Positions 11,826 through 33,651 of a stretch of 64,000 nucleotides of DNA are shown here, in pieces. The position numbers were made by a program, and so were the translations under genes. The stretch is taken from assembly GCF_900105655.1 (NCBI RefSeq), contig NZ_LT629787.1:372001-436000 (forward strand), written 5' to 3'. This DNA is from Halopseudomonas salegens (GTDB taxonomy: Bacteria; Pseudomonadota; Gammaproteobacteria; Pseudomonadales; Pseudomonadaceae). Below the pieces are notes generated by a model. It was not told the origin of the DNA and ran no database searches. It saw only the letters and a list, made by a program, of their open reading frames with translations. Position 1 is the first letter of the stretch, and every line of letters begins with the position of its first letter.

Positions 11826-11959
11826 GACAGTTTTTATTTCTTGGCTATACATCGCCTGTTTTGGGCGTTACAGATTAAAAAGCTATATAAAACAGAGTGA
11901 TAAGTGGTTAAAGTGGATTTCATCACGCTTGATTGGTCAGCGTTTATAGGGATATAACA

Positions 11960-12008: not shown

Positions 12009-12017
12009 TATTCTGCA

Positions 12018-16664: not shown

Positions 16665-18242
16665 ATGTTCAAGAAGTCGATTCTTGCAGTCTCGCTGACT
16701 GCTACCCTCAGTGCCTGCTCAGTAAATCCCCAGATTATTGCTCCCGCCGAGGTGGCCCAATCGTCCCGTGAGGATATGTCCTTGTTGTTCCGCGATCAGG
16801 CGGTCAGTGGTGCGGTGAGTCTGGATGAGGCCATTGCCCGGGCAGTATTGAACAACCGCGAGAAGAAGTTGAAAACCCTCGAAGCGGCGCTGGCTCAGGG
16901 GCAGATCGAAGTGGCCAGGCATGCCATGTTGCCCGAACTGACTGCGGCGGCAGGCTATTCGCGACGTAGTGAGTATGCGGCATCGGCCAGTGTGGTCTTT
17001 GATGACGGCAAGCCTGGCCCCCTGGGTGAGAACCCCTCTTATTCGGTCTCGCAGGATAAAAGCCGGCACACGGAAGATATCAGCTTTACCTGGAATGTAC
17101 TGGATTTCGGCCTTTCTTATGTGCGCGCCCAACAGCATGCCGATCGTTACCTGATCAGCAAGGAGAGGGAGCGCAAAGTGGTGCATAACATCACGCAGGA
17201 TGTGCGGGCTGCATACTGGCGTGCCGTCTCTGCCGAGCGCCTGCTGGTCAAGATTGATCCATTGATCGAGCAAGCCAGTGACGCTCTGGCCAATTCCCGT
17301 CAAGTGGAAAGCCAGCGCCTGCGGGCTCCGCTGGAAGCACTTTACTATCAGCGCGAGCTGCTGGACATCCTCCGTGCCCTGCAGGCCTTGCGTCTGGACC
17401 TGTCCGGTGCCAGAACAGAACTGGCCGGGCTCATGGGGCTGAAGCCGGGCACGGCTTTCGAGCTGGCGGATGTCGGTAATCCGTCCTTTACCATGCCGGA
17501 ACTGGGTGTGTCGCTGAACGAGATGGAGGAGCTGGCGCTGCAACAGCGTCCCGAACTGCTGGAAAGTCGCTATCAGCAACGCATTTCTGCCGCCGAAGCA
17601 CGGGCCGCTTTATTGGATATGTTGCCCGGGATCAACCTGACTGCGGGGGTCTATCAGGACAGCAATGATTACCTGCTCAACCAGGACTGGACCAGCTTTG
17701 GCGCGCAGGTCAGTTGGAATCTGTTCGACGTCTTCCGTGTAGGTACCGAACGGCGGCTGGCAAAGACTCGTGAAGCGCTGGCCGAGGAGCAGCGTCTGGC
17801 GTCCTCGATGACCGTGCTTACTCAGGTGCATTTGTCGCATATCCGCTATCAGCAGGCATTGAAGAGCTTTGATCTGGCGGACAGCTACCTGCAGGTGGCT
17901 CAGCGCATTGGCGAGCAAACGGCCAACGCTGCCTCCAGTCAGCGTTCCTCTGAGCTGGATAATATCCGCGAATCCCTGAACGCCTTGCTGGCCGAGCTGC
18001 GCCGTGATGTCGCTTATGCTGATCTGCAAAACAGCTATGGGCGAATTTTCGTCAGCATGGGGATGGATCTGCTGCCCGAAGGGTACACCGAGGTGACGCT
18101 GGAGGATCTGAGTGAGCAGATTCGCCAACGCTTTGCCGCCTGGCAGGCGCAGAAAACGCCGGTAGCAGAAGAGGCGCCGGCTGATGATGAGGTTGATGTT
18201 ACCCAGCAGCCGGCAATCGTTGCTGAAGGCAAGGTGGGTTGA
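16665..18242 (+). CDS. TolC-family outer-membrane efflux lipoprotein
   Basis: A 525-aa outer-membrane channel of the TolC/OMF class. The N-terminus is a lipoprotein signal (LSAC, Cys at about 18). The body has two repeated long coiled-coil regions (about 55-290 and 300-480) with the OMF pattern, for example VSLDEAIARAVLNNREKKL, FTWNVLDFGLSYVRA and VSWNLFDVFRVGTERR. The C-terminal 30 residues are acidic and Pro/Ala-rich. An AAGG site precedes ATG 16665. It overlaps the next adaptor gene by one base (TGATG) and opens the seven-gene locus. It should provide the outer-membrane conduit for export of the giant protein, or of another cargo handled by the three adaptors that follow. Confidence 0.9.
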   Translation: MFKKSILAVSLTATLSACSVNPQIIAPAEVAQSSREDMSLLFRDQAVSGAVSLDEAIARAVLNNREKKLKTLEAALAQGQIEVARHAMLPELTAAAGYSRRSEYAASASVVFDDGKPGPLGENPSYSVSQDKSRHTEDISFTWNVLDFGLSYVRAQQHADRYLISKERERKVVHNITQDVRAAYWRAVSAERLLVKIDPLIEQASDALANSRQVESQRLRAPLEALYYQRELLDILRALQALRLDLSGARTELAGLMGLKPGTAFELADVGNPSFTMPELGVSLNEMEELALQQRPELLESRYQQRISAAEARAALLDMLPGINLTAGVYQDSNDYLLNQDWTSFGAQVSWNLFDVFRVGTERRLAKTREALAEEQRLASSMTVLTQVHLSHIRYQQALKSFDLADSYLQVAQRIGEQTANAASSQRSSELDNIRESLNALLAELRRDVAYADLQNSYGRIFVSMGMDLLPEGYTEVTLEDLSEQIRQRFAAWQAQKTPVAEEAPADDEVDVTQQPAIVAEGKVG

Positions 18243-18973
18243 TGCGTTTATGGGCCAGTTTGCTGGTGCTTGCGGGGCTACTGCTCCCGGCGCTGGCGAA
18301 TGCCGACTATACGGCGCGGGCAGTTATAAAAGCCAGCCAGCGGGCGGTGCTTTCCGGCGAGCTGGCAGCGCGGGTCGAGCGTTTGCCCCTGCGGGCCGGT
18401 GATGCCTTCGCCAAGGGGGATGTGCTGGTGGCGCTGGACTGTGCGCTGTATCAGGCGCAGACCGAGAAGGTGTCAGCAGAGCTGCAGGCTGCGCGTATCC
18501 GGCGTGATAACGCCAGCGAGATGGAAGCGCTTAACGCCATTGGCGAGCTTGAAGTGGCATTGGCCATGTCTGACTTTGCCCAGGCCCGGGCCGCGCTGAC
18601 CATTGCGCGGCTGAATACGTCGCGCTGCAACATTCGTGCGCCCTGGGATGGTCGTGTGGTCAGTGTGTTGGTCAATGAACATGAAGTTATTCGCCAGCAA
18701 CAAGAACTGATCGAAGTGCTCTCTACGGGTGCTCTTGAGGCTGAAGTGGTGGTGCCGTCAGAGTGGCTGCGCTGGCTTAAGCCAGGTATGCCTCTGCAAT
18801 TGCTGGTGGAGAATATTGAAACAATGGCAGAGGCACGAGTGATTGCACTCAACCCGGCCATTGATGCGGTCAGTCAAACCGTGACGTTGCGAGCTGAACT
18901 GATCGATACCGGGTTGTTGGTACCCGGTATGAGCGCAAGTGCCAGGTTCATGCCCGAGGCTGAACACCCGTAA
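18242..18973 (+). CDS. Short HlyD/RND-type periplasmic adaptor
   Basis: A 243-aa membrane-fusion protein with an N-terminal signal peptide (LLLPALANA). A lipoyl-like half follows (VLSGELAARVERLPLRAGDAFAKGDVLVALD), then a short alpha-hairpin, the second lipoyl half (NIRAPWDGRVVSVLVNEHEVI) and a beta-barrel domain. It is shorter than ordinary RND or T1SS adaptors (350-450 aa). It lacks a transmembrane anchor after signal cleavage, so it may act as a periplasmic spacer. Coupled to the TolC gene; the giant-protein gene starts 53 bases downstream. Confidence 0.87.
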   Translation: MRLWASLLVLAGLLLPALANADYTARAVIKASQRAVLSGELAARVERLPLRAGDAFAKGDVLVALDCALYQAQTEKVSAELQAARIRRDNASEMEALNAIGELEVALAMSDFAQARAALTIARLNTSRCNIRAPWDGRVVSVLVNEHEVIRQQQELIEVLSTGALEAEVVVPSEWLRWLKPGMPLQLLVENIETMAEARVIALNPAIDAVSQTVTLRAELIDTGLLVPGMSASARFMPEAEHP

Positions 18974-19026
18974 AGATGTATCGCCCGGGGCTAGCAATAG
19001 GTGCCCGTCAGTAAGGGGAAGGGAAT

Positions 19027-22000
19027 ATGAGCAAGCAGAATAAAATCGGACAAAGTGGATTTCGTCGCAAGCCATTGATCATGGCCCTGGAGTCACGCAT
19101 TTTGCTCGATGGTGCGGTGATGGTTACAGCGGCTGAAGCCCTTTCAGACGTTGAGCTGCAGTCAGACGCAGTGCATGGCGAATCAGCCGAACAGAGTATG
19201 CATTTCGCCGCACCGACACCGGTCGGTCGCGAGTTGACAGTGCGTCGAGAAGTGGCGGTCATTGATACCAGTGTTGACGGCCATGAGGATTTGCTGGCTG
19301 AACTGGGTGCCTATACCGAAACCATCTTGATCGACGGTAGCGAGAACGGTCTGGAGCAGCTGGTTGCCGCTTTGCAGGGGCAGTCAGACATCGATGCTCT
19401 GCATATTCTTTCCCACGGTGAGCTGGGTGAGCTGCGCCTGGGCTCCCTGACCCTGAATGCCGATAATCTGGCGGCCAATAGCGAACTGCTGTCTACTCTT
19501 GGCCAGTCACTCAGTGACGATGCTGACCTGATGCTGTACGGCTGCTACGTGGGTGCCGAGCAACAAGGGCGTGGTTTTATTGATGCCCTGGCCGGAATCA
19601 CTGGTGCCGATGTGGCGGCTTCGGATGACTTGACCGGTGCAGCACGCCTGGGTGGGGATTGGGAACTGGAGGTGGAAAGCGGAGCTATTGAAACCTTTGC
19701 CCTGACTTCAACGGATTTTGACAGCGTATTGGCTCCGACCGTGAACGCGGTGGCGGATTCGGTGATTTACACCGAAGGCGGTGACCCTGTCACCATTGAT
19801 ACCGGCATCAGCTTCAGTGGTGGCGGTGACTACCGTGAAGGCTATATCCGTTTTTCCGTTGAAAACCCCACCAGTGGCGACCAGTTTGTATTGCAGGATG
19901 CCGATGACGTAAATGCCGAAGGCGCTATCTCGGTGGTAGGCATTGATGTCTATCGGGGTAATGGGTCGGACCGTGAACGTATTGGCTCGATTGACTCGGT
20001 GGAAAATGGCGTCAATGGGCAGCCGCTGAAGATTCTGCTGTCCTCGCCTTTGCCCAATTCGGGCTTTGAGGAAGGCACGGCCAACTGGACATTGTCTAGT
20101 CAGATTTATGGCGACAACCCGGGTGAAATCAATTTCGATAATTACGTTATACCGCTGGCCAACAACAGTGACTCCAATAGTGTTTATAACGGTGGGACAG
20201 GTACCACAAATGTGCAAGCCTCATCCGGTAGCTTTAGTCCGCAGGCCAGTATCTCAGCAGGAACTGGTGTGGACGGTACTCAAGCTCTTTATCTGAGAAG
20301 TTCAGGAAATATAGTCAGTACTGATCAGGATCCCTTTGGCAGCTTTCAGGCCGATGGCTACGGTTCGATTCATGGCCCCTATGCCACCAGTACTGTGATT
20401 ACGGTGGAGAATGGCGATTCCATCTCCCTGGATTTCAAGGCAGTTGGCAATACAGATGATTACGAAGTGTTCGGTTTGCTGCGGCGGGTGGATGGCAGTG
20501 GTAACTTTATCAGTGATAACCCGAATGATAGTGTCAATAACGTAGTGCTCTTTGCTGAACGTGGTGCTGATACAGGCGGTTTTGTCCGGGTGGATAAAAC
20601 CGGTTTGAGCGCGGGTGAGTATCGCTTCCAGTTTGTCGGGGGCACATACGACGGTACAGGCGGCCTTGCTGTTGGCTCCAATCTTTACGTTGACAACATC
20701 CGCCTCATCTCCAGTCAGCAGGTGACCGATACCGTCGCCAGCAAGATTGCTTCCCAGGTGACCTACCAGAGCACGGCCGATGACACAGAGGTGGAGCGCA
20801 CAATTACCATTGCTGCCAGAGACAGTGCCGGTGGTGTGGGTTCCGATACCATTACCCTGCAGGTAGAGCAGATCAACAATGCCCCATCTTTCTCGGGTGA
20901 TGCTACTTTGGCTGCTGTCAATGAAGATACGCTGTCACCTGCCGGCAGTAGCGTTGGTAGCCTGTTTGATGGCGTTTTTGATGACCCGGATGAGGCGTTC
21001 ACTCCACCGGATTCACTGTCCGGCATCATAGTGACCGGTGACAGCAGTGTTCCGGCACAAGGTGAGTGGCAATACAGCACTGATGGCAGCAACTGGTATG
21101 CCATTGGCGATGTCGCCGCTGACGATGGTCTGTTGCTCTCACGCGATGCCAGTCTGCGTTTTGTTCCGGCAGCCGACTATAACGGCACACCGGGTAGCCT
21201 GAATGTGCACGCGGTCGACAGTAGTCTTAACACTGTCATCTTTACCGATGGCACAAACCGGGTGTCCTTTGATACGACCGCTACCGGCGTAACCGGTGGT
21301 GAAAACGCGGTGTCGACCAGTGCCGTCAATCTGAATACCAGTATTACGCCAGTGGATGATGCCCCGGTTCTGGACCAGCCGGCGGCACAAGAGGTCAATG
21401 ATACTGATCAGCTGGATACCTTTGCCGAGCTGACCGGCACGCTCTCGGCATCCGATATTGATACGCCGGACAGTGAGCTGTTTTACGGTATTGATGGTGG
21501 CCAGAGCCTGGTGGAGGATGTTGCTCTGGCGGGTAGCTTCGGTACCTTGCGTGTGGTCAGGGCGACCGGCGAATACACCTATACGCCGGATTCTGAAGCC
21601 ATCAATGCCTTGACTACGGCAGAGGTCGACAGCTTTACCGTGACAGTAACCGATGGCACCACCACGGTATCGAAAACCCTTACTTTCAATATCAATGGCG
21701 CCAATGACGCCCCGGTATTTGGCACCATCACGGAAGTAGACGACACCACAACACCGCCTGACCTGAGCGGCGGTGTTGCGCCAGGGGATGGACTAGAAGT
21801 ACTGGATAACGGCCTGCTGCGTTTTGGCAGCAATGCTCAGGACTCCATCAACGCCATGACCGGCATGCTGGAGCAGCCGTTCTATTATGACAATGGTCAG
21901 GATTTCAAATTAACCTTTTCAGACTATGCGCTGAATTTGGCACTGGGCGTCAATGGTGACGGTGCCAGTGACTGGAATCTGAATGGCGATGTCAATCTGG

Positions 22001-25000
22001 CACCCTCTTTCAGCAACATCACTGTGGACACCAGTGGGTTCAGTGGCGGTAGCGGCACTCTGGTATGGCGCGGAGAGATCACTATCAACGGTGCCCAGCT
22101 GGCAGTGACGCATGTCTACGAGTTGCCGGCTAGCTCTGCCTATGTGGAAACTCGCACCTTTGTTACCAATATTGGCTCCAGTGAGGCTACCAATCTGCGG
22201 GTATGGGTGGGTACACAGGATGACTATATTGCCGGTTCAGACATGCCAGCGAAACAGAAGGGCAACCTGGTGGGTGGGTCTTTCGAAGTCAACACGGCGA
22301 CCGGTCAACAAGGGCAAGCGATCAAGGTATACAGTGATGATACGGCGGTACTGTTTTTCAGTACCTCCGAGAAAGCCGATACCATTATTGGTCGGGATTA
22401 TGGCTGGACGTTGACTGATACAAGGGACACGCCGGCGATTGACCCATCGCAATCGGTCTTCGATCAGCCGTCAGAGGATGGTGGCTATGCGCTCTTTGTC
22501 CGAATGGATGACTTGGCAGTCGGTGAAACCCAGAGTTTTGACTGGTTCTACGCCGCCGGCTCAACCCAGCAGATTGACGCCATTATCGCCGAGGTTTCAG
22601 CTGCAGCCTCTGCCAATCTGGTAGAAGGTGGGCAGCTAATTGAAAGTGGAGAATACGTTCTTTCCGATGTTGATACCGGGGACGTGGTAACCCTTGCACC
22701 CAGCTCAGTCAGTGCAGGGCAGTTTGACCCACAGGGTAATCCTGTTGCGCTGGGTTCAGCCGTGCCCGATCAGGCGACATTGCTGTCCATGTTGTCGGTT
22801 ACACCGACCACTGTAGTGGATGCTGCCAGTACCTCAGGTAATTTTGATTGGACCTTCGATGCCGGCTCGGAAGGATTTGATTTTCTGGCTCAGGGTGAAA
22901 CACTCAAGCTGGAGTATACCCTGACTGCGGAAGATTCCTTTGGTGCCACCGCCAGCCAGGTGGTAGAAGTGGTTATCGAAGGCATCAATGATGCACCGGT
23001 GGCGCAGAATGGTTCCGGCTCACTGGGTGAGAACGAGATTTTCAGTGCCAGTGTCGCGGCAACCGATGTAGACGGTAGCATTGCCAGTTATGCGCTGGTC
23101 AGTGGTGTCACCAGAGGGTCACTGGGCTTTAACGCCAACGGTACTTACAACTTTGATCCGGGCACAGATTTTGACTATCTGGCAGAGGGTGAAACCACTG
23201 CAGTAACCTTCACTTATCGGGCAACCGATAACCAGGGCGCCGTCAGTCAGGTGGCTACAGTGACCTTGACTGTTGTTGGCAGCAATGACGCGCCTGTGGT
23301 GAGTGCAGGCAGTGGTACTGCGGCCGAAAATGACAGCCTGGCTTCCAATGTGCCTGCTGCCACCGATGTGGATGGCAGCATTGTCGGTTACCAGCTGGTG
23401 ACCGATGTTGCCGAGGGTAGCCTGACATTCAATAGTGACGGTACCTACACCTTTGCAGCCAACAGTGACTTTGATGATCTGGCGGTCGGTGAAAGCAGAC
23501 AGGTCAGCTTCACCTACACCGCTACAGATAATGATGGTGCAGTCAGTGCTCCGGGAACAGTAACCTTTACGGTAACGGGTACCAATGATGTGCCGACCAT
23601 TTCGGCTGAAGCGGCGGCCCCTGTTAGCGAAGTCCCCGGTGATTCCAGCGCCCAGGACCTGAGCGATAGCGGCGAGATCACCTTTGACGATCTGGACACC
23701 ACCGATGTAGTGGACATCACCTTTGCCGGCAATAACGACATCAGCTGGAGTGGTGGCAGTCTCGATGGCACCCTGGCCAGCGCCCTGGTCGGTGGCTTCA
23801 GCATCCCGACCACCACCGACGCAGCAGCACCGGGCAGCGTGGACTGGACCTATGCGCTGAATGACGTCGACCTGGACTTCCTTGCAGCCGGTGAGACCAT
23901 CAGTTTCAGCTACACGATCACCGCGACCGACAGTCAGGGTGCCACGGACACGGATACCGTGACCTTTACCATCACCGGCACCAACGACGCGCCGACCATT
24001 TCGGCGGCAGCGGCCGATCCTGTTACCGAAGCCCCCGGTGATTCCAGTGCCCAGGACCTGAGCGATAGCGGTGAGATCACCTTTGACGATCTGGACACCA
24101 CCGATACGGTGGACATCACTTTCGCCAGCAATAACGACATCAGCTGGAGTGGTGGCAGTCTCGATGGCGCCCTGGCCAGCGCCCTGGTCGGTGGCTTCAG
24201 CATCCCGACCACCACCGACGCAGCAGCACCGGGCAGCGTGGACTGGACCTATGCGCTGAATGACGTCGACCTGGATTTCCTCGCAGTCGGTGAAACCATC
24301 AGTTTCAGCTACACGATCACCGCGACCGACAGTCAGGGTGCCACGGACACGGATACCGTGACCTTTACCATCACCGGTACCAACGACGCACCGACCATCT
24401 CGGCGGCAGCGGCAGATGGCATTACCGAGGAGCCCGGTGACTCCAGCAGTCAGGCGTTGAGCGACAGTGGCGTGGTCAGTTTTGATGATCTGGATGTCAA
24501 TGACACCCTGAGCATTACCGCAGTGAGCAACAACGACATCAGTTGGAGTGGCGGCACCCTGGATTCGGCCGTAGCCAATGCGCTGGTGGCGGGTTTCAGT
24601 ATTCCGGCGACCAGCGATGTAGCCCCGGGCAGCATTAACTGGAATTACGACGTCGCATCAGTGAATCTGGACTTCCTTGCCGAAGGCGAGACCATCAGCT
24701 TCAGCTACGACATCACTGCTACCGATAGCCAGGGAGCCACAGCCAGCGATACGGTGACCTTTACCATCACCGGTACCAACGATGCGCCGACCATCAGTGC
24801 CGAGGCCGCTGACCCCATCACTGAAGTGCCGGGCGATTCCAGCAGCCAGGCGTTGAGCGACAGTGGCGTGGTCAGTTTTGATGATCTGGATGTCAATGAC
24901 ACCCTGAGCATCACCGCGGCCAGTAACAATGACATTGTCTGGAGCGGCGGCACCCTGGATTCGGCCGTGGCCAATGCGCTGGTGGCGGGTTTCAGTATTC

Positions 25001-27585
25001 CCGAGACCACCGGTGCAGCAGCACCGGGTAGCACCAACTGGAGCTATGACGTCAACGCGGTAAACCTGGACTTCCTCGCTGCCGGTGAAACCATCACCTT
25101 CAGCTATACCCTGACGGCAACCGACGGCGAAGGGGCGACGGATACGGATACCGTGACCTTTACCATCACCGGTACCAACGATGCGCCGACGATCAATGCC
25201 GAGGCCGCTGACCCGATCACTGAAGTGCCGGGCGATTCCAGCAGCCAGGCGTTGAGCGACAGTGGCGTGGTCAGTTTTGATGATCTGGACGTCAATGACA
25301 CCCTGAGCATTACCGCAGTGAGCAACAACGACATCAGTTGGAGCGGCGGTACTCTGAATGCGGCGGTGGCCAATGCGCTGGTGGCGGGTTTCAGTATTCC
25401 GGCCAACGCTGATCTGGAGGCTCCCGGTACGCTGGAGTGGACCTATGCGGTCGGTGCGGTGAATCTGGATTTTCTCGCCGCAGGTGAAACCATTACCTTC
25501 AGTTATACCTTGACTGCAACGGATCCACAGGGTGCCACAGACACCACGACGGTCAGCTTCATCATTACCGGTACCAATGATGCACCGGTTGTTGAGGTTT
25601 CCCCGGCTGAAGTCATGGCCGAAGCTGGCGATGCCTCCGCACAAGTGTTGCGCCAATCCGGTACGGTTGGCCTCGGTGACAGTGATGTCAATGATGTCGA
25701 AACAGTCAGCTACGCGCATAACAATGATATCCGCTGGAGCGGTGGCAGCCTGGATGCTGTACTGGCGCAGCGTCTGCTGGCCGGTTTCAATATTCCGCCA
25801 ACCTCTTCAGCAGATACTCCGGTCACCATCAATTGGGACTATCTGGTCAATGGCGTGGATCTGGATTTCCTTGCGGTTGATGAAACTATTACCTTCAGCT
25901 ATACCGTGACGGTTACTGACAATCAGGGTGACAGTGATACCGCAGTGATTGATTTCCGCCTTGTTGGTACCAACGATGCACCGGAGATCGAAATCCAGGC
26001 CCCGCAAACCTTCGTCGAGGCAACGGATGCGGAAAGTCAGAGCCTGAACCAGTCCGGTCTGGTGCGGTTCAACGATCTGGACAGCAATGACCGCGTCAGC
26101 GTCCGTTTTGATAGCAACGATGATCTCGGCTGGCGTGATGCGACTGGCGAGATCGTAGCCAGTCTGCCGGCAGAGCTGGCCGAGCGTCTGCTGGCCGGTT
26201 TTACTGTGCCGCAGCCAAACGGTCTCGACGCACCGGGTGAATTGACCTGGCAGTACACGGCCAATGATCTGGATCTGGACTTTCTGGCAGCAGACAGCAC
26301 CATCAGCTTCAGTTATACGCTCACCGTCACTGACAATCAGGGGGCATCCAGCAGTAGCGTGATCAGCCTGCTGATTCGCGGCACCAACGACGGGCCGGTT
26401 GCCGATGCGCTGGACATTGATCAGGTATGGCAGCAGGGGCGGGAGTTCGGGCTGGATGTGGCCGACCGTTTCTCCGATGCTGATCATGGAGACACCTTGA
26501 CTTATGAGGTAACCGGCTTGCCCCGTGGGCTGGTTTACGATGCGCAGACAGGTGTGATCAGTGGCACAGCGACCGAGCCCGGGGTGTTCAATGTGCAGAT
26601 CACCGCCAGCGATGCACAGGGCGCTTCGGTCAGTCGCAGCTTCGGCATGACGGTAACTGCACTGGTATCTGAGGCCGAAGTGCCGACACCGCCACCGGCA
26701 CCGCAGCCAGCGCCTGAGGTAACGCCGCCGGCACCGACTCCGGTGGGTGATACGGGTACCGGACCGGGTTTGGATGCTGGCCTGATTTCGAACAATCCAG
26801 CAGGTAACAGCGTGATTGATGGCACCGGCTTTATGCCGCCTGGTATGCCTGATGGCGGCAATCAGGGTGGTGCTGAGCCTGCGGCCTCCATGCCGTTTGA
26901 CGTGGGTGAAGCTGACGGTAGTGGCGACGACAATGCCGGTGAAGACCTTAATGCCAACTCACCTCTGGCTGGTGGCGATACCGAGGGTTCATCGGCGCCT
27001 GCAGGTGATGACGTCGTACTGCTGTCGGAACCGGGAGCAGTAGCCATCGCCACCACTGGCGCTGATGGACGCACAAGCGTACGTGCGGCGGTTGATGTCA
27101 CCGTGGGTACTGATGGCGTGGTGAGCTTCACCGATGCCCAGCAGGAGGCCTTCAGTATCGTTGGTCTGACGGTATCCGGCATTGACCGGCCCGACAACGG
27201 ATCAGCCCTGATCCGGATTCAGGATTCCAACTCGGCTACGTCCCTGCAGGAGTACACGGGTAGTCTGGGCTCCGGTGAGCGGCTGCCTGACTGGATCAGC
27301 GTGGACCGCAATACCGGTGCCGTCAGCATCAATACGCCGCCGGATGGCGTGCGTGAGGTGGTGGTTCGGGTGCAGGCCATCGGCAGTGATGGTCAGGTGC
27401 GCATGCTGGAGCTGAAGCTGGATCTGGATGAGCTGTTCCGCCGTGCTGTCAGCCCTGACGTTGAGATTCAGGCTGAGCCTGAGCCGGAAACCGGCTTTGT
27501 GCCCTTGCAGGGTCAGTTTGAGGCTGAGCTGCAGGCTCGTGACGGCTATGGCGATCAGTTGTTGAGTTTGCTGCGATCAACCTGA
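19027..27585 (+). CDS. Giant exoprotein: LEPR-XLL, DUF4347, VCBS/cadherin-like repeats
   Basis: A 2852-aa acidic protein. It opens with a basic segment and an LEPR-XLL-like motif (LESRILLDG, 21-29), then DUF4347 at about 75-236. In DUF4347, HILSHG (His130) and LYGCYVG (Cys173) form a His/Cys pair spaced as in caspase-like clan CD peptidases. Next come beta-sandwich domains, two VCBS-like units, and seven units of about 133 residues (about 1519-2452) each opening with a GTND-type motif. A putative Ig domain, a Pro/Gly-rich linker and a C-terminal folded domain (about 2670-2852) follow. Few Cys; no Sec signal peptide and no RTX nonapeptides. An AAGGGGAAGG site precedes the ATG. A surface-attached or released adhesin-type protein is likely. 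The neighbours encode the probable exporter. Confidence 0.85.
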   Translation: MSKQNKIGQSGFRRKPLIMALESRILLDGAVMVTAAEALSDVELQSDAVHGESAEQSMHFAAPTPVGRELTVRREVAVIDTSVDGHEDLLAELGAYTETILIDGSENGLEQLVAALQGQSDIDALHILSHGELGELRLGSLTLNADNLAANSELLSTLGQSLSDDADLMLYGCYVGAEQQGRGFIDALAGITGADVAASDDLTGAARLGGDWELEVESGAIETFALTSTDFDSVLAPTVNAVADSVIYTEGGDPVTIDTGISFSGGGDYREGYIRFSVENPTSGDQFVLQDADDVNAEGAISVVGIDVYRGNGSDRERIGSIDSVENGVNGQPLKILLSSPLPNSGFEEGTANWTLSSQIYGDNPGEINFDNYVIPLANNSDSNSVYNGGTGTTNVQASSGSFSPQASISAGTGVDGTQALYLRSSGNIVSTDQDPFGSFQADGYGSIHGPYATSTVITVENGDSISLDFKAVGNTDDYEVFGLLRRVDGSGNFISDNPNDSVNNVVLFAERGADTGGFVRVDKTGLSAGEYRFQFVGGTYDGTGGLAVGSNLYVDNIRLISSQQVTDTVASKIASQVTYQSTADDTEVERTITIAARDSAGGVGSDTITLQVEQINNAPSFSGDATLAAVNEDTLSPAGSSVGSLFDGVFDDPDEAFTPPDSLSGIIVTGDSSVPAQGEWQYSTDGSNWYAIGDVAADDGLLLSRDASLRFVPAADYNGTPGSLNVHAVDSSLNTVIFTDGTNRVSFDTTATGVTGGENAVSTSAVNLNTSITPVDDAPVLDQPAAQEVNDTDQLDTFAELTGTLSASDIDTPDSELFYGIDGGQSLVEDVALAGSFGTLRVVRATGEYTYTPDSEAINALTTAEVDSFTVTVTDGTTTVSKTLTFNINGANDAPVFGTITEVDDTTTPPDLSGGVAPGDGLEVLDNGLLRFGSNAQDSINAMTGMLEQPFYYDNGQDFKLTFSDYALNLALGVNGDGASDWNLNGDVNLAPSFSNITVDTSGFSGGSGTLVWRGEITINGAQLAVTHVYELPASSAYVETRTFVTNIGSSEATNLRVWVGTQDDYIAGSDMPAKQKGNLVGGSFEVNTATGQQGQAIKVYSDDTAVLFFSTSEKADTIIGRDYGWTLTDTRDTPAIDPSQSVFDQPSEDGGYALFVRMDDLAVGETQSFDWFYAAGSTQQIDAIIAEVSAAASANLVEGGQLIESGEYVLSDVDTGDVVTLAPSSVSAGQFDPQGNPVALGSAVPDQATLLSMLSVTPTTVVDAASTSGNFDWTFDAGSEGFDFLAQGETLKLEYTLTAEDSFGATASQVVEVVIEGINDAPVAQNGSGSLGENEIFSASVAATDVDGSIASYALVSGVTRGSLGFNANGTYNFDPGTDFDYLAEGETTAVTFTYRATDNQGAVSQVATVTLTVVGSNDAPVVSAGSGTAAENDSLASNVPAATDVDGSIVGYQLVTDVAEGSLTFNSDGTYTFAANSDFDDLAVGESRQVSFTYTATDNDGAVSAPGTVTFTVTGTNDVPTISAEAAAPVSEVPGDSSAQDLSDSGEITFDDLDTTDVVDITFAGNNDISWSGGSLDGTLASALVGGFSIPTTTDAAAPGSVDWTYALNDVDLDFLAAGETISFSYTITATDSQGATDTDTVTFTITGTNDAPTISAAAADPVTEAPGDSSAQDLSDSGEITFDDLDTTDTVDITFASNNDISWSGGSLDGALASALVGGFSIPTTTDAAAPGSVDWTYALNDVDLDFLAVGETISFSYTITATDSQGATDTDTVTFTITGTNDAPTISAAAADGITEEPGDSSSQALSDSGVVSFDDLDVNDTLSITAVSNNDISWSGGTLDSAVANALVAGFSIPATSDVAPGSINWNYDVASVNLDFLAEGETISFSYDITATDSQGATASDTVTFTITGTNDAPTISAEAADPITEVPGDSSSQALSDSGVVSFDDLDVNDTLSITAASNNDIVWSGGTLDSAVANALVAGFSIPETTGAAAPGSTNWSYDVNAVNLDFLAAGETITFSYTLTATDGEGATDTDTVTFTITGTNDAPTINAEAADPITEVPGDSSSQALSDSGVVSFDDLDVNDTLSITAVSNNDISWSGGTLNAAVANALVAGFSIPANADLEAPGTLEWTYAVGAVNLDFLAAGETITFSYTLTATDPQGATDTTTVSFIITGTNDAPVVEVSPAEVMAEAGDASAQVLRQSGTVGLGDSDVNDVETVSYAHNNDIRWSGGSLDAVLAQRLLAGFNIPPTSSADTPVTINWDYLVNGVDLDFLAVDETITFSYTVTVTDNQGDSDTAVIDFRLVGTNDAPEIEIQAPQTFVEATDAESQSLNQSGLVRFNDLDSNDRVSVRFDSNDDLGWRDATGEIVASLPAELAERLLAGFTVPQPNGLDAPGELTWQYTANDLDLDFLAADSTISFSYTLTVTDNQGASSSSVISLLIRGTNDGPVADALDIDQVWQQGREFGLDVADRFSDADHGDTLTYEVTGLPRGLVYDAQTGVISGTATEPGVFNVQITASDAQGASVSRSFGMTVTALVSEAEVPTPPPAPQPAPEVTPPAPTPVGDTGTGPGLDAGLISNNPAGNSVIDGTGFMPPGMPDGGNQGGAEPAASMPFDVGEADGSGDDNAGEDLNANSPLAGGDTEGSSAPAGDDVVLLSEPGAVAIATTGADGRTSVRAAVDVTVGTDGVVSFTDAQQEAFSIVGLTVSGIDRPDNGSALIRIQDSNSATSLQEYTGSLGSGERLPDWISVDRNTGAVSINTPPDGVREVVVRVQAIGSDGQVRMLELKLDLDELFRRAVSPDVEIQAEPEPETGFVPLQGQFEAELQARDGYGDQLLSLLRST
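23581..26382 (+). repeat. Seven tandem ~399-bp repeats inside the giant gene
   Basis: Units begin at the ACCAAYGAYG codons at 23581, 23980, 24379, 24775, 25174, 25573 and 25969, with the next boundary at 26383. Periods are 399, 399, 396, 399, 399, 396 and 414 bases. Units 1 and 2 and units 3 to 5 share long identical DNA blocks, while units 6 and 7 are diverged. Each encodes a cadherin/VCBS-like domain of about 133 aa. Recent duplication or gene conversion is likely, and copy number may vary between strains. Confidence 0.9.
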
Positions 27586-27595
27586 GGAGACGCGG

Positions 27596-28936
27596 GTGAG
27601 TGACAAGGTTGCAGCGCTGCTGGGGCTGGAACAACAACTGCGCAAGGCATCAGACCTTGCGCAGTTGTTTTATACCCTGGTCAACCAGACAGGGCAGTGC
27701 GTGCCTTACGTACAATCCGTACTGGCTCAGGGTAGCGCGCTGGATGCCTTGTCGGTGGTGGCGGCCTCGGATGTGCCGACGGTCGACTTTACCGCCCCCT
27801 ATATCGTCTGGGTGGAACGGGTAATCAAATACCAGGTGGGCAGCGGGCTGGCCGCTCAGCAGGCCATATTGACGGCGGATGACCTGCCGGATAATGTGGC
27901 TGATGACTGGCGGGCTTTCGGTTTGCCGCCCTTTCTGCTCTGGCAGCCGCTGCCGGTAGAGGCGCGAGAGGGCAGCATTGCCGGTGTACATTTGCTGTTC
28001 AATGATCGCCGCTGGAGCGAGGCTGAGCTGGGTATCAGTCAGCATCTGGCCGCTTCCGCCGGGCATGCACTCTTTGCTCTGCGTCAGCAAAACCCCTGGC
28101 AGGGCTGGCGTCCGCGTTGGCGCAACCGGCGCCGTAACTGGATTATTCTGGCGATGCTGGCAGCATTGATGTTCTGGCCGGTGCGGGTCAGTGTGCTGGC
28201 GCCGGCACAGATCATTGCCCGTGAGCCCTGGGTAGCAACCGCCCCGCTTGATGGTGCCGTCGACCGGGTCATGGTTGAGCCGAACCAGGCCGTGGCTGAG
28301 GGTGAGGTGCTGGCCAACCTGCAGACCTCTGATCTGGCCAGCGCAGCAGAACTGGCTGATCAGGCGCTGCTGCTGGCCGAGGCCGAGCTGAAAACCGTGC
28401 AGCAAAGTGGCTTCCTTGATCCGCGACAAAAATCCCGTCTGGCTGAGCTGGAGACCACGGTGCGCATGCGCGAGATCGAGCGTGAGTACGCGCATCAGCG
28501 GTTGCAGCGGGCAAGTATCCGTGCCGCAGTCCCGGGCGTGGTGGTGCTGGACGACCCGGCAGCCTGGTCGGGGCGCCCGGTACAAACCGGCGAGCGGATT
28601 TTGCTGGTGGCAGATCCGCAGCGGGTGGAGATCGAGATCCGCTTGCCGGTCAAGGATGCGATTGCACTGGAAGAGCAGGCCGCGGTGCGCCTGTTTCTGG
28701 ATCGGGCGCCCTTGCAGCCCTTGTCCGGACAATTGCGCCATGCCGCCTATGAGCCCAGTGAAGACAGTGGCCAGCAGATGTTCTACCGTCTGGTGGCCAG
28801 TCTGGATGCGTCTGCCGAGCCCTTGCCGCGTCTGGGTATGCGGGGTACGGCAAAGGTCTATGGTGAGCGGGTGACGCTGTTTTTCTATCTGTTCCGGCGC
28901 CCTATCACGGCAGCGAGGCAGTGGATGGGATGGTAG
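27596..28936 (+). CDS. GAF-domain HlyD-type membrane adaptor
   Basis: A 446-aa inner-membrane adaptor. Residues 1-170 look like a cytoplasmic GAF-type domain. A Trp/Arg-rich linker leads into a single membrane helix (about 183-200). The periplasmic part is a HlyD-like barrel-sandwich (APLDGAVDRVMVEPNQAVAEGEVLANL), a short coiled coil and the second lipoyl half plus beta-barrel (RAAVPGVVVLDDPAAW). The GTG start at 27596 is supported by a GAGGAG site just after the stop of the giant gene. The cytoplasmic GAF-like part could sense a ligand or contact the cargo. It overlaps the next gene. Cytoplasmic extensions on adaptors are unusual. Confidence 0.82.
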   Translation: MSDKVAALLGLEQQLRKASDLAQLFYTLVNQTGQCVPYVQSVLAQGSALDALSVVAASDVPTVDFTAPYIVWVERVIKYQVGSGLAAQQAILTADDLPDNVADDWRAFGLPPFLLWQPLPVEAREGSIAGVHLLFNDRRWSEAELGISQHLAASAGHALFALRQQNPWQGWRPRWRNRRRNWIILAMLAALMFWPVRVSVLAPAQIIAREPWVATAPLDGAVDRVMVEPNQAVAEGEVLANLQTSDLASAAELADQALLLAEAELKTVQQSGFLDPRQKSRLAELETTVRMREIEREYAHQRLQRASIRAAVPGVVVLDDPAAWSGRPVQTGERILLVADPQRVEIEIRLPVKDAIALEEQAAVRLFLDRAPLQPLSGQLRHAAYEPSEDSGQQMFYRLVASLDASAEPLPRLGMRGTAKVYGERVTLFFYLFRRPITAARQWMGW

Positions 28937-31038
28937 CGGTACGCCTGTCAGCCCTGCGTCAGGATCTCAAGTTATTGCCCGGTGCGGCAGATGAGCAGGG
29001 GGCGCCGCGCTGGCTGCTCAGTGACCGGGTGCGTAACCGTTACTTTACCCTGGCCGAGGACGCCATTGCGCTGGTGCGCTATTGGCAGCCGGGCGTGACC
29101 GCCAGCGAACTGAGTGAGCAGCTGGCGAGCCAGGGGCTGGATTACGCCGAGGAGGATATCACCGCCTTCAACGATTTCCTGGTGGCCAATAATCTGGTGC
29201 AGGCGCGGACCGACGCGGCAGTGGGCTATTTTGTCGGCAAGGCCCGAGAGGCCCGCCCGCCCTGGTGGCAATGGCTGCTGCACAATTATCTGTTTATCCG
29301 TATTCCTTTGCTGCGGCCGGACCCCTGGTTACGGCAGCTGGCTGCTTTTCTCGCGCCCTTGCTGACCTCGCGTAGCGAACGTCTGGTGCTCCTGGCCGGG
29401 CTGGTTGGTGTGTTTCTGGTATTACGTCAGTGGGATGCCTTCGTTGCGACCTTCATGCATTTCTTCAGTTGGCAAGGTCTGCTGGGCTATGGCATCACCC
29501 TGGTACTGGTAAAAAGCGCCCATGAGTTGGGTCATGCGCTGGTGGCCAGCCGACTGGGTTGTCGGGTCTCCTCCATGGGGGTGGCCTTTCTGGTCATGTT
29601 CCCGGTGCTCTACACCGATACCACCGATGCCTGGCAGCTTCGCTCCCGGGTCGACCGCCTGCGGATTGTCACTGCCGGGGTTCGCACCGAACTGTATCTG
29701 GCACTGATTGCGACCCTGCTCTGGAGCTTGTTGCCCGATGGTGTTGTGCGCAGTGCGTGTTTCTTCGTCGCTACTACCAGCTGGGTGACTTCGCTACTGA
29801 TCAATATCACCCCTTTTATGCGCTTTGATGGTTATTTTGCCCTGTCCGACCTGATGGGAGTGGAAAACCTGCAACCCCGTGCCTTTGCCCTCGGCCGCTG
29901 GCAGCTGCGTCGCTGGTTGTGGGGGCTGCAGGACCCCGCGCCTGAGCCGCTGCCCAGACAGCGGGCGCGCTGGATGATTCTGTATGCCTGGGGGACCTGG
30001 ATTTATCGCTTTTTCCTGTTTATCGGTATTGCCTTGCTGGTTTACCACTTTTTCTTCAAGGTTTTGGGCATACTCCTGTTTGTCGTTGAAATTATCTGGT
30101 TTGTTCTTATGCCTGTGGCCAAGGAAATGCGTGTCTGGTGGGAACGGAAGGCGGACTTTTCCTGGTCCTGGCGCCGACGATTCTTGCTGGCAGTGCCGGT
30201 TATGCTGCTGCTCTGGCTGGCCCTGCCGTTAGCGGTTGATGTACAGGCGCCGGGCCTGCTGAAAGCGCAGCAACACCAGCGCGTCTTTGCTCCTGAAGCC
30301 GCCCAGGTGAGCGGCCTGCAGGTATCTCTGGGGCAGCGGGTTGTTGCGGATCAGGCGCTGCTTGAGTTGACCTCCCCGACGCTGGAAGAGCGTTGGCAGC
30401 TGGCCAGCCAGGAGCAGGCGCTGCTCGCGGTCAAATTACAGCGCCAGGCGGCCTCGCTGGAAGAAAAGGCTGCGCAGACGGCTAACCGACAGCGTTATCA
30501 GCAGTTGGAAGAGCGTCTGCGGGCGCTGGCGGAACAACGCGAGGGTCTGACTCTGCTTGCTCCCTTTGCCGGGCAGATCAGTTGGCTGGAAAGCCTGCAG
30601 CCCGGCCAGTGGGTGATGGCCGATCAGCCCCTGTTCAGCGTCACCCAACAAGGCAGTGCCCAGCTTGAGGCCTTTGTGCCCGAGCGTTATCTGGAGCTGC
30701 TGGAACCCGGCCAGCAGGCATTTTTCATTGCCGATCATGGGCAGCTACCCCGACTGCCGGCAGAACTGACGAGCATCGATCTTGGCGCCCTGCATGTGTT
30801 GCCCTATGCAGAGCTGTCCTCATTGTCTGGTGGGCCTATTGCGGTGCGGGCCGGGGCGCAGGGTTTGCAGCCACAGGATGCCTATTACCGGGTGCGCTTC
30901 GAGTTGCTGGATCCGGCTGTCGATCTCAGTAGCCTGCGCCTTACCGGCGAGCTGCTGATCAAGGGCAAGTCGCGCAGCTGGCTGGGCTTGCAGCTTCGAC
31001 GTGTGCTCTCGGTATTGGTCAGGGAGGGTGGTTTTTGA
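28930..31038 (+). CDS. M50-type membrane metalloprotease fused to HlyD-like adaptor
   Basis: About 702 aa (705 if the GTG at 28921 is used). The N-terminal 100 residues resemble a PqqD-like winged-helix fold. A multi-span membrane region follows with HELGH (201-205 counted from 28921) and a downstream FDGY (Asp303), the zinc ligands of site-2-protease/M50 enzymes. After the last membrane helix (about 420-440) a periplasmic barrel-sandwich domain starts (VQAPGLLKAQQHQRVFAPEAAQV), interrupted by a coiled coil and closed by a second half (LLAPFAGQISWLESLQPGQWV). The family is known from peptide/bacteriocin and exoprotein loci but its mechanism is unclear. It could process or energise export of the giant protein. 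The start overlaps the GAF-HlyD stop. Confidence 0.82.
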   Translation: MVAVRLSALRQDLKLLPGAADEQGAPRWLLSDRVRNRYFTLAEDAIALVRYWQPGVTASELSEQLASQGLDYAEEDITAFNDFLVANNLVQARTDAAVGYFVGKAREARPPWWQWLLHNYLFIRIPLLRPDPWLRQLAAFLAPLLTSRSERLVLLAGLVGVFLVLRQWDAFVATFMHFFSWQGLLGYGITLVLVKSAHELGHALVASRLGCRVSSMGVAFLVMFPVLYTDTTDAWQLRSRVDRLRIVTAGVRTELYLALIATLLWSLLPDGVVRSACFFVATTSWVTSLLINITPFMRFDGYFALSDLMGVENLQPRAFALGRWQLRRWLWGLQDPAPEPLPRQRARWMILYAWGTWIYRFFLFIGIALLVYHFFFKVLGILLFVVEIIWFVLMPVAKEMRVWWERKADFSWSWRRRFLLAVPVMLLLWLALPLAVDVQAPGLLKAQQHQRVFAPEAAQVSGLQVSLGQRVVADQALLELTSPTLEERWQLASQEQALLAVKLQRQAASLEEKAAQTANRQRYQQLEERLRALAEQREGLTLLAPFAGQISWLESLQPGQWVMADQPLFSVTQQGSAQLEAFVPERYLELLEPGQQAFFIADHGQLPRLPAELTSIDLGALHVLPYAELSSLSGGPIAVRAGAQGLQPQDAYYRVRFELLDPAVDLSSLRLTGELLIKGKSRSWLGLQLRRVLSVLVREGGF

Positions 31039-32969
31039 TCAGAGTGCTTTGCGCCCTGGCATTGCTGGTACTGGTATGGTCTGAAGCAAGCGCCACAGTC
31101 ACAGTGCTGGATCAGCGTGCGCTGACGCTGGATAGCGGTCAATTGTCAGTGCTTGAAGACCCAGGCAATGCAATGGATCTTGCGGCTGTCATGCAGGCCT
31201 ATGCTGCCGGTGACTTCATCCCGATTCCCGCTGGGCTGTCGGCCGGTTATAGCGATTCGGCATTCTGGATCAGTGCGAGGGTGCTCAGGCCGGCAGATGC
31301 AGCGCCCTTCTGGGCGCTGATGGCACAACCCTCCTACCTTGACCAGGTAGATGCCTACTGGCTGCAGCATGGCCGGCTGGTAGCCCACTGGGCTGCCGGT
31401 GACATGCAGCGAGACACGCAACATGACCTGCATCCACGGTTACACCTGGTCGGCGGCGAGTTGCCCACGGGCGAGCTGCAGTTGCTGGTCAGATTAAAGA
31501 CAACCAGCACCTCTATTCTGTTGTTGCAGTTGATTCCGCAGGAAAAGCTGGCTGCAGTGTTGGACAGCCGGGTGTTTTCCGAGGGCTTTTTTATCGGTTT
31601 GCTGGTTGTCATCCTGCTGATCAATCTGCTCAATGGCTTTTGGTTGCGCAAGTCGATATTTCTGTACTTTGTTGCCTATGAGGCAGGCCTGATCAGTGTG
31701 GTTTTACTTGCTTCTGGTCTGATTGAGAGCTGGTTTGTATCGGTGGATTCGGTCACAGCCAACAAATGGATGCAGTACGCGCTGGTGATCAATGGATTTC
31801 TGGCGTTTGTTTTCTTCTATCGTTTGCTGAGTTTTGTCAGTCGCTACCGACGCCTTATTGCCTCACTGTTCATGTGCGGAATAGGGTTGGTGGCTTTGGC
31901 ACTTTTTATGGTGCTTCAGGAGCGCTTTACGCAAGGTATGGCCTATGCCAGCTGGGGGCTGATGGTCCTGCCACCCCTGGTTATCTTGCCGCTCGCACTG
32001 CAGTGGCGAGTGTTTGATAGCGAGCAGATCGCGCGCGTATCGGGTTTTCTGGTGTTCAGCCTGCTGGTTGTGGCCAATGCTCTCTATGTCAGCGGACTCA
32101 TTCCAATGTCCCGCTACAGCATCATGATCGCGCCATTGTTGATACTCTCATGTCAGTTAATCCTGCACTTCGTATTGATGTTCAGTGTGCGCAAATCAGA
32201 ACGGGTGCTTGCCCAGACTCTATTGGAGGCACGTCAGGCGGAAGATCAGGCCAGCCTTGAACGGCAAACACGCAAAATGCACGAAACCTTTACGGCGATG
32301 TTTTCCCATGAAGTGCGTACCCCTTTGGCCATTATTGACAGTGCCGCTCAGTCCTTGCTGCGCCTGGAGGACAAGGCGGACGCCAGGCGGCAGCGAGAAT
32401 TACGTGTGCAGCGTCTGCGTGATGCGGTGAAGCGTATAGGCGATCTTTTGCAGATCAGCATTATGCGCAATCGCTTCGATCCGGCCGGGGATGAGGCAAG
32501 TATCGGCCATGATTATGACCTGCTTGCCCTGACAGAAAAATTGATCGACAGCTTCCCGGCTCTTCAGCAGGAACGGATACGCTTCAATACCTCTTTGAGT
32601 GAGTTGGAACTGCACACGAGCATTCCCGAAGAGCTGCTGGGTGTAGTGCTGCGCAACCTGCTGGACAATGCCCTGAAATACAGTCCCAGCCTGTTTCCGG
32701 TTCAGGTCTATATTGCCCGGGAGGAAGGTGGGGTGTGCTGGGCAGTTCGCGACTTCGGGCCGGGGCTGAGTGAGCATGTGCGCAAGCATATGTTTGATCG
32801 CTATTTTCGTGCCAATGAGGGTGCACAGGTACCAGGTCTTGGCCTGGGTTTGTATATTGTCAATGAACTGGTCTGGCGCTATGCATTGAAACTTGACGTT
32901 GATAGCGGTACGGAAGGTACCCGGATAGCTTGTTATATCCTTGATGCTGAGGAGGGCGACAATGCATGA
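31035..32969 (+). CDS. 7TMR-DISM sensor histidine kinase
   Basis: A 644-aa sensor kinase. After a signal peptide (VWSEASA) comes a 7TMR-DISMED2 extracytoplasmic beta domain (about 25-175, with YSDSAFWISARV), which commonly binds carbohydrates. A seven-helix 7TMR-DISM block (about 178-385) follows, then a coiled linker. HisKA has the phospho-acceptor His425 in FSHEVRTPLAIID, and the HATPase carries the N box NLLDNALKYS, DFGPGLS and GLGLGLYIV. The TTG start at 31035 overlaps the previous stop and has a GGGAGGGTGG site; GTG 31044 is an alternative. It should phosphorylate the following OmpR-type regulator. As the promoter-proximal genes are the export machinery, the pair most likely controls this locus. 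Confidence 0.9.
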   Translation: MIRVLCALALLVLVWSEASATVTVLDQRALTLDSGQLSVLEDPGNAMDLAAVMQAYAAGDFIPIPAGLSAGYSDSAFWISARVLRPADAAPFWALMAQPSYLDQVDAYWLQHGRLVAHWAAGDMQRDTQHDLHPRLHLVGGELPTGELQLLVRLKTTSTSILLLQLIPQEKLAAVLDSRVFSEGFFIGLLVVILLINLLNGFWLRKSIFLYFVAYEAGLISVVLLASGLIESWFVSVDSVTANKWMQYALVINGFLAFVFFYRLLSFVSRYRRLIASLFMCGIGLVALALFMVLQERFTQGMAYASWGLMVLPPLVILPLALQWRVFDSEQIARVSGFLVFSLLVVANALYVSGLIPMSRYSIMIAPLLILSCQLILHFVLMFSVRKSERVLAQTLLEARQAEDQASLERQTRKMHETFTAMFSHEVRTPLAIIDSAAQSLLRLEDKADARRQRELRVQRLRDAVKRIGDLLQISIMRNRFDPAGDEASIGHDYDLLALTEKLIDSFPALQQERIRFNTSLSELELHTSIPEELLGVVLRNLLDNALKYSPSLFPVQVYIAREEGGVCWAVRDFGPGLSEHVRKHMFDRYFRANEGAQVPGLGLGLYIVNELVWRYALKLDVDSGTEGTRIACYILDAEEGDNA

Positions 32970-33651
32970 AAGCCATCGCATTGCGGTACTGGAGGATAAC
33001 CCTCCCCTGCGAGAAGAGTTGCTTGATCTGCTGAACGATCAGGACTGGCAAGCGGTGGGCTTCAGTAGAGCAGCCGATTTCATGCAGGCACATCGAGCCA
33101 GTGCCTTTGATGTCTTGCTGCTTGACCTTGGTCTGCCAGATGCCGATGGACTTGAGGTGGCACAACAACTGAGTCGGCAACAGGATCCAATCGGGATTAT
33201 CATTCTCAGTGCCCGTGGCAGCCTGGATGACCGTGTACGCGGACTGATGGATGGTGCTGATGCCTATGTCGGAAAGCCGTTTGAGCATGCAGAGCTCTTG
33301 GGTTACATCACTGCCTTGCTACGTCGCAAGAGGCGGCAGCAGACTGAAGGCGCATGGTGTTTACAGCCCTCACGGATGCAGTTGTTGAGCCCGGAAGGGC
33401 GTATTGCTGTGGCGCTGACGGTTCAGGAAGTGCGGCTGATCAACGCCCTGGCAGCAGAACACCCCGAATCACTCTCGCGACAACAGATGATCCATGCTTT
33501 GGGTGAAGACTATCGCCTGTACGATGAGCGCCGTCTGGAGAAGCTGGTCAGCCGTTTGCGGCAAAAGTTGCTTGAATACTGTGATGACTGTCCGATCAAG
33601 GCGGTTCGCGGCAAAGGGTACATTTTTGCTGAACTTATCCGTAGCGAATAG
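32962..33651 (+). CDS. OmpR/PhoB-type response regulator
   Basis: A 229-aa regulator. The receiver domain (1-120) has the phospho-acceptor Asp55 in LLLDLGLPDADG, the acidic ELEDN-type pocket at the N-terminus and Lys in VGKPFEHAELL. A winged-helix DNA-binding domain follows (about 130-225) with the closing KLVSRLRQKL and AVRGKGYIF. ATG 32962 has a GAGGAGGG site and overlaps the kinase stop by eight bases, so the two are a coupled two-component pair. The upstream frame start at 32941 lacks a ribosome site. It ends 26 bases from the convergent rlhA. Confidence 0.92.
   Translation: MHESHRIAVLEDNPPLREELLDLLNDQDWQAVGFSRAADFMQAHRASAFDVLLLDLGLPDADGLEVAQQLSRQQDPIGIIILSARGSLDDRVRGLMDGADAYVGKPFEHAELLGYITALLRRKRRQQTEGAWCLQPSRMQLLSPEGRIAVALTVQEVRLINALAAEHPESLSRQQMIHALGEDYRLYDERRLEKLVSRLRQKLLEYCDDCPIKAVRGKGYIFAELIRSE

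Follow-up and report, generated by a model that had tools for sequence, protein, structure and literature searches.

A conserved gene module for the putative export of giant surface proteins in Halopseudomonas salegens and other Pseudomonadota

Type I secretion systems such as HlyBD-TolC and LapEBC combine a TolC-family channel with HlyD adaptors and an adjacent gene for a very large, repeat-rich surface protein, and they are defined by an ATP-binding cassette (ABC) transporter. We analysed a locus of Halopseudomonas salegens that shares the channel, the adaptors and the giant protein gene. It lies in a stretch of 64,000 nucleotides of contig NZ_LT629787.1 (positions 372,001 to 436,000; below, the window), where seven reading frames, all on the + strand and overlapping or closely spaced, occupy 16665-33651. 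The initial annotation had described these seven genes on a single strand with overlaps or short gaps; the coordinates were all confirmed, and the families were as described when compared with Pfam and NCBIfam.

In contrast to type I secretion, the module contains no ABC transporter, and none exceeded the cut-offs of three curated models in the home genome. There are three adaptors, two of them fused to other domains (GAF-HlyD and M50-HlyD), and the giant protein, which we term the cargo, has an N-terminal motif as well as a C-terminal motif that is not of the repeats-in-toxin (RTX) type. Since the module fails the defining ABC test, we have not filed it under type I secretion. It also differs from tripartite efflux systems (MacAB-TolC, EmrAB-TolC) in having no MacB, major facilitator superfamily (MFS) or resistance-nodulation-division (RND) subunit.

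A second set of described systems is found in the pathways for ribosomally synthesized and post-translationally modified peptides (RiPPs), with leader recognition by PqqD domains, also called RiPP recognition elements (RREs), and M50 leader proteases (the daptide HExxH protease, YydH/LiaK). A PqqD-like domain joined to M50 is shared with M50-HlyD, which scored 150.1 bits against the daptide model NF041824 (cut-off 300) and 28 bits against the LiaK model (cut-off 225). Unlike these proteases, M50-HlyD is fused to HlyD, and its proposed substrate is thousands of residues long rather than a peptide. LapA with LapD/LapG offers a further likeness: a giant adhesin might be cleaved or held back through its N-terminal part, and a membrane protein bears a sensory domain, whereas the proteases of the module are of the M50 and caspase-like types.

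In its workings the module would resemble a tripartite route that is coupled to TolC and headed by a RiPP-style front end. Judging from sequence, we consider the chances about evenly balanced that it is a dedicated system for the export and processing of giant surface proteins, lying outside curated type I secretion. The exporter had been called poorly described, and no account of exactly this gene set was found in the literature searched, which included PMC8262886, PMC12322963, PMC10868602, PMC13323088, PMC12710340 and PMC7470986, with bioRxiv and most subscription papers outside the search.

Gene content and conservation of the module

The conserved core consists of GAF-HlyD and M50-HlyD, together with the periplasmic HlyD, the TolC lipoprotein and the giant cargo. 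In the window, the first of these genes (16665..18242, 525 aa) encodes a TolC-family outer-membrane factor (PF02321, OEP/TolC, 2e-38) with a lipoprotein-like N-terminus, an LSAC lipobox being recognizable by eye; it scored 48 bits against TIGR01844, where the cut-off is 225. The short periplasmic HlyD/membrane fusion protein adaptor (18239..18973, 244 aa) matches HlyD_3 and HlyD_D23, exceeds the cut-off of the RND_mfp model TIGR01730 (105.5 against 94.9 bits) and begins with a signal-like sequence of hydropathy 1.97. The cargo follows (19027..27585, 2852 aa), with a LEPR-XLL start, a DUF4347 domain, and VCBS, cadherin-like and tandem-95 repeats in Pfam and NCBIfam. GAF-HlyD (27596..28936, 446 aa) has a predicted N-terminal GAF-like domain, one membrane helix (hydropathy 2.16) and an HlyD adaptor (HlyD_3), and M50-HlyD (28921..31038, 705 aa) matches Peptidase_M50 and HlyD_3. 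None of the three HlyD-type proteins identified by Pfam in the window reached the TIGR01843 cut-off of 208.65 (best score 35.3).

The GAF domain that had been assigned to the membrane adaptor stands for the family but not for the window copy. Pfam did not detect it in the latter at E ≤ 10, where the HMMER filters drop most weak matches, whereas at E ≤ 1 GAF_2 matched nine and GAF eight of 45 aligned family members.

A scan of genome contigs gave at least 582 stretches encoding M50-HlyD relatives. The best 80, which were kept, include many from Pseudomonas and others from Chromobacterium, Variovorax, Paraburkholderia, Nitrospirillum and Methylococcaceae. At the protein level, 6709 of 7999 scored candidates lay at E ≤ 1e-3. 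An M50-HlyD profile (A1), built from 68 sequences, matched 39 of 145 genomes of the order (E ≤ 1e-35) and 88 of 398 Pseudomonadota genomes, about a fifth (E ≤ 1e-80; two candidates scored per genome). The scores fell into two parts: a strong group above 600 bits, to which the window's own protein belongs, and a weaker group, mostly at 230-340 bits with two at 450-500. The strong group makes up 23 of the 48 places in the order sample and 77 of the 398 genomes in the phylum sample.

Gene content was compared over 141 loci, comprising the window, the 80 best stretches, 20 more and 40 that were held out; 136 of them contain a strong M50-HlyD at a threshold of 450 bits. The loci other than the window are at most 22 kb long and many are cut. 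GAF-HlyD was present in 130 of the 136 strong-group loci (window included), and in 128 it lay immediately upstream of M50-HlyD. Because the loci are short and often cut, the counts for the short HlyD on the same strand (117/136), TolC (67/136) and DUF4347 (69/136) are floors. The set is redundant; at 80% identity it reduces to 84 representatives, 78 of which have GAF-HlyD. The pairing of GAF-HlyD with M50-HlyD is beyond chance.

In the order sample, DUF4347 was located within 20 kb of M50-HlyD at 25 of 44 places, and on the same strand in all 25. By genome, in counts that ignore kinship, M50-HlyD and DUF4347 occurred together in 26 of the 145, M50-HlyD only in 13 and DUF4347 only in 8; the corresponding numbers for the 398 genomes of the phylum sample were 75, 13 and 20, with 290 having neither. 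The samples overlap, such that 78 of the 88 M50-HlyD and 85 of the 95 DUF4347 genomes in the phylum sample are new, 66 of these being shared. The proposal of a distinct gene module was borne out, with conservation far beyond the genus. In one genome (G026) the genes are divided between contigs, with TolC, short HlyD and cargo on one and GAF-HlyD and M50-HlyD on another.

The LExR leader, the PqqD-like domain and the cargo

The start of the cargo matches the LEPR-XLL model NF012209 within its first 77 residues (19.3 bits against a cut-off of 17), the window copy reading LESR. The motif itself, LESRILLDGA (residues 21-30, 19087..19116), is a candidate export or recognition signal, and across cargoes takes the form LExR-x-x-(F/L)DGA or similar. 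The order sample has 25 DUF4347 places with linkage to M50-HlyD, of which we read 13, window included. A first, stricter pattern was found in 10 of these 13 cargoes, and was loosened after the three misses had been read (L137, MEERLLYSA; L141, LEQRILFDGA; L142, LEKRYLFDGA). The looser pattern was found in 13/13 linked cargoes compared to 0/8 DUF4347 proteins from genomes without M50-HlyD, some of which start with Sec-like sequences by eye. Fisher's test, which ignores kinship, gave p = 4.9e-6 for the looser pattern and 0.001 for the stricter one. Among unlinked DUF4347 proteins in genomes that do have M50-HlyD, the motif was present in G026 and G037 and missing in G049 and G057 (four proteins, 5 of 11 places read).

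With the looser pattern set beforehand, the 40 held-out loci gave 11 giant frames that were N-complete and adhesin-like, and 10 of them carry the motif, compared to one of 439 other frames (stop to stop, 300-900 aa); the test excluded giant frames whose composition differed or that had a different module match. By eye, the lone miss (L179) appears to be antisense. Among the held-out loci, three (L174, L176 and L180) have an M50-HlyD at least 90% identical to that of earlier loci; without such near-copies the count was 8/9, and at 75% identity it was 7/8. The type of motif also tracked the M50-HlyD group, strong-group cargoes having mostly DGA and the weak-group cargoes of L135, L136, L137 and L144 having SA. 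The invariant Glu, Arg and Asp in an alignment of 33 cargoes prove nothing, because the rows were picked by presence of the motif. The loosened pattern, the near-copies and the selection of that alignment by the motif reduce the weight of individual figures, though not that of the overall pattern that they share.

The LExR start motif follows the exporter genes rather than DUF4347. We also considered DUF4347 itself as the export signal and rejected it: the domain occurs without M50-HlyD and without LExR (all eight read), and three cargoes with no DUF4347 match (L147, L039 and L177) retain the motif. Since the N-terminal motif tracks the exporter, the suggestion that LEPR-XLL is a recognition or processing signal gains real support; that it is specific to this system in every organism is less certain, in view of a Vibrio protein reported in PMC10868602 (below).

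A candidate reader of the motif lies at the start of M50-HlyD and had been missed by the initial annotation. In an AlphaFold2 model of this protein (mean predicted local distance difference test score 88), residues 17-89 form three strands followed by three helices, and the order beta-beta-beta-alpha-alpha-alpha is that of the PqqD/RRE fold. Alignment of the N-terminal columns of profile A1 (window included) with 15 PqqD domains using hhalign gave a probability of 91.6% (E = 8e-7), compared to at most 0.7% for four other regions of module proteins; the comparison set was obtained by dropping 15 of 30 PqqD loci in which both strands were open. The Pfam PqqD family was found at the start of 8 of the 48 M50-HlyD places in a genome search, all in the weaker group, with 21.7 to 32.7 bits and six over the cut-off of 23.4; in G068 the match is in a frame of its own that directly precedes M50-HlyD. 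The window protein fell below Pfam PqqD detection, and PqqD was not among the 25 Pfam families listed first for the 68 relatives. M50-HlyD is therefore predicted, from sequence comparison and the model together, to open with a PqqD-like domain of the RiPP-recognition type (about residues 10-95, 28948..29205).

Solved structures did not provide a match for this N-terminal fold, because profile A4 gave only chance-level matches to them and the VIA-align rows for M50-HlyD span residues 436-692 only. Matches to designed TIM-barrels were set aside as chance. The C-terminal part (residues 436-692) folds like MacA, EmrA and MexA. Between the two regions is an intramembrane metalloprotease domain: Peptidase_M50 (PF02163) scored 33.6 bits against a cut-off of 27.2, and in the model the HExxH zinc motif (H201-H205, 29521..29535) lies in a helix bundle after the PqqD-like domain. 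H201, E202 and H205 are invariant in 68 aligned rows; HExxH is present in 136/136 strong-group and 5/5 weak-group frames, and the distal NxxPxxxxDG motif in 134 of the 136. Receptor-like, protease and adaptor domains are therefore combined in one chain.

PqqD matches were also found in frames of 413, 677 and 835 residues that were not recognised as M50-HlyD (G073:C1:2034221, G086:C175:2289 and G060:C11:313275).

The DUF4347 domain of the cargo (19252..19704) was modelled by AlphaFold2 as an alpha-beta fold like those of caspases and CHAT, and Foldseek and VIA-align matched the model to Tce1, CHAT and caspases. H130, G131 and C173 are invariant in the 33 aligned rows. DUF4347 is thus predicted to be a caspase/CHAT-like domain with a conserved, catalytic-type His-Cys pair, which had likewise been missed; the closest known caspase-like cysteine proteases are CHAT/Craspase, Tce1 of type VI secretion and the cysteine protease domain of TcdB type.

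Several cargoes and DUF4347 proteins depart from this arrangement. The L147 cargo (L147:116-8398) starts with LEQR and has no DUF4347 match; its first domain includes an EELGH stretch and may be a different peptidase-like head, and the start of the L039 cargo resembles it. L196, L197 and L202 encode DUF4347 giant proteins that lack LExR and have similar ends resembling an outer-membrane barrel. The first two begin with Sec-like sequences by eye and come from genomes without M50-HlyD, while in the L202 genome M50-HlyD is located elsewhere. In G149, DUF4347 (G149:C1:2731072-2731572) sits inside a 14,920-residue open frame. In contrast to the strong-group cargoes, three from the weak group (L135:10935-16040; L137:8557-12582, − strand; L144:2264-10813, − strand) have a hydrophobic stretch and then an LPxWxxxDPxxxL tail as their C-terminus, and such an end could anchor them in the membrane.

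At the other end of the cargo, the pattern [GA][KRAQEN]xx[LF]xx[QE][LMF] begins 19-70 residues short of the terminus in 34 cargoes from a hand-picked set of 46, compared to 1 of 2300 internal windows. As the pattern was written from the same 46 cargoes, only the held-out figure counts: 8/17 compared to 10/630 (p = 1.3e-9), with 8/17 when near-copies are removed and 7/16 at 75% identity. Several of the held-out misses are near-matches by eye. The window cargo fails the strict pattern and meets it loosely, by eye, as GFVPLQGQF (27493..27519). It has no RTX family match in Pfam or NCBIfam, so the earlier statement that the cargo lacks a C-terminal signal holds for RTX. If 'no signal' was meant as an unconserved C-terminus it is wrong, because a non-RTX motif is shared by many of the relatives.

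Proposed route, energy source and alternatives

In RiPP pathways, PqqD-type domains bind leader peptides. By analogy, the PqqD-like domain of M50-HlyD, which like the GAF-like domain would face the cytosol, would most likely bind the LExR leader of the cargo, and the leader could be trimmed or released at the M50 site. The GAF domain of GAF-HlyD would act as a gate that responds to a cytosolic ligand, and the chain would be handed through the adaptors to TolC and out. Once outside, the caspase-like DUF4347 head might cut itself or a neighbour. The driving force at the inner membrane is taken to be a housekeeping one, either SecA/Sec or the proton-motive force, none being encoded in the module. 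A new Pseudomonadota secretion system of this kind, in which a cytosolic RiPP-type domain joined to a protease and an adaptor reads the LExR leader and a GAF-gated ring leads to TolC, with no ABC, RND or MFS pump and a caspase-headed fibre on the surface, is a possibility that we advance tentatively, with more doubt than confidence.

Should this proposal be correct, the giant surface proteins of bacteria would include a large class exported along a route with a short signal of its own, and the motif would provide a sequence rule for predicting such cargoes. To our knowledge, textbooks list no such export route. PqqD-type leader recognition would extend from small peptides to giant proteins, the leader logic of RiPPs being reused, and caspase-like heads would be displayed on the surface of many bacteria, many Pseudomonas among them. 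It would also pose an energetic question, that of how a chain of thousands of residues is driven over two membranes without a dedicated pump.

A number of points weigh against the proposal. Both the binding of the leader and its trimming are drawn by analogy. Across 25 frames the hydrophobicity of the leader is no more than moderate (KD19 maximum 0.64-1.49, with 1.49 in the window), and so it offers no clear substrate helix for a site-2 protease. No energiser was found in the module, which leaves the inner-membrane step unexplained. The genome counts take no account of kinship. LssB-type ABC transporters are commoner in genomes with M50-HlyD than in the rest (21/39 compared to 27/106; odds ratio 3.4, p = 0.0025, kinship again ignored, with one of these 48 genomes with LssB, G003, under the cut-off). 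Finally, PMC10868602 reports that a giant protein of Vibrio combines a LEPR-XLL start with a C-terminal RTX region.

ABC, RND and MFS transporter domains were not found by Pfam in twenty other window proteins (frames such as 42962-43822 and 60704-62773 being outside the scan). An exporter-type ABC on either strand was present in 7 of the 136 strong-group loci, or 3 of the 84 representatives. Such an ABC transporter is not a constant neighbour of the module. In four Pseudomonas loci (L019, L048, which is cut, L061 and L075) the exporter ABC shares the strand of the short HlyD gene and precedes it by 2.5-6.4 kb. By eye, the neighbours of the one in L061 (L061:1137-6146) are TolC- and HlyD-like, an arrangement that we take to recall lapEBC.

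The home genome (G000; one contig of 3,796,005 bases, completeness 100) encodes six PF00664 proteins. Four could be classed: one passes the MsbA model, one is MsbA-related and two reach no listed cut-off, and none is of the type I secretion system (T1SS) type. The remaining two, which were not classed, are a neighbouring pair and CydDC-like by position alone. Searches with the LssB, HlyB and PrtD models, in which the best 7, 37 and 46 candidates were scored, returned nothing from this complete genome at the E-values applied and no listed hit above a cut-off. In the order sample, LssB was over its cut-off in 11 of the 17 genomes with a strong M50-HlyD; of the six others, G071 has HlyB, G043 and G044 have PrtD, and no ABC of these three classes was over its cut-off in G000, G020 or G014. 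A constant T1SS partner is unsupported given these three genomes, though LssB is enriched. A non-T1SS exporter ABC such as MsbA is a possible energiser.

The best-surviving alternative is export in two steps, which we think rather unlikely. Here the N-terminus would be an unusual Sec or signal recognition particle (SRP) signal or anchor, Sec would carry the cargo to the periplasm, M50 would remove the signal, and the adaptors and TolC would serve only an outer-membrane step or retention. A module with no inner-membrane energiser fits such a route, as does a leader of moderate hydrophobicity, and some DUF4347 proteins of genomes without M50-HlyD (L196, L197) have Sec-like starts by eye. However, the Glu, Arg and Asp of the motif lie inside the hydrophobic stretch of the leader, whose hydropathy in the window is below that of the short HlyD signal sequence, and the fusion of two adaptors to domains expected to be cytosolic suggests capture before crossing.

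Surface retention or regulated release, with the GAF domain sensing a ligand, M50 and the caspase-like head controlling release or signalling as LapD/LapG do for LapA, and another system performing export, is distinctly improbable. It would account for the presence of two protease-type domains and a GAF-type sensor domain, and for the hydrophobic end helix that could hold the three weak-group cargoes at the membrane, but TolC and three adaptors make up a transport route, and an exporter-type ABC is not constant nearby. An ordinary type I system with its ABC encoded elsewhere, to which the module contributes adaptors, outer-membrane factor and processing protease, is the least probable reading, since three strong-group genomes have no curated T1SS ABC over cut-off and ABC exporters are found in so few loci, despite the LssB enrichment, the four Pseudomonas loci, a C-terminal motif that could be a T1SS-like signal, and a cargo with VCBS repeats and a T1SS-143 repeat match under the cut-off (54.7 against 66.05 bits).

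Neighbouring genes in the window

The last two of the seven frames encode a 7TMR-DISM sensor histidine kinase (31035..32969, 644 aa) and an OmpR/PhoB-type response regulator (32941..33651, 236 aa), both assigned by Pfam and NCBIfam. The initial annotation had counted them as part of the export module. We searched 100 loci for them, the 40 held-out loci not being included, and strong copies on the same strand were found only in the window and in G037 (L146). The pair is therefore a local feature outside the core.

Just upstream of the locus is an edge resembling that of a genomic island, with a tRNA (11936-12005), a phage-type integrase (10328-11758, − strand) and a Schlafen-group-3-like helicase (in the region 10328-14821). 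Downstream, at 37813-42992, a glycosyltransferase with an MshEN domain is followed by an NfrA_C/TPR protein, forming an NfrB/NfrA-like pair.

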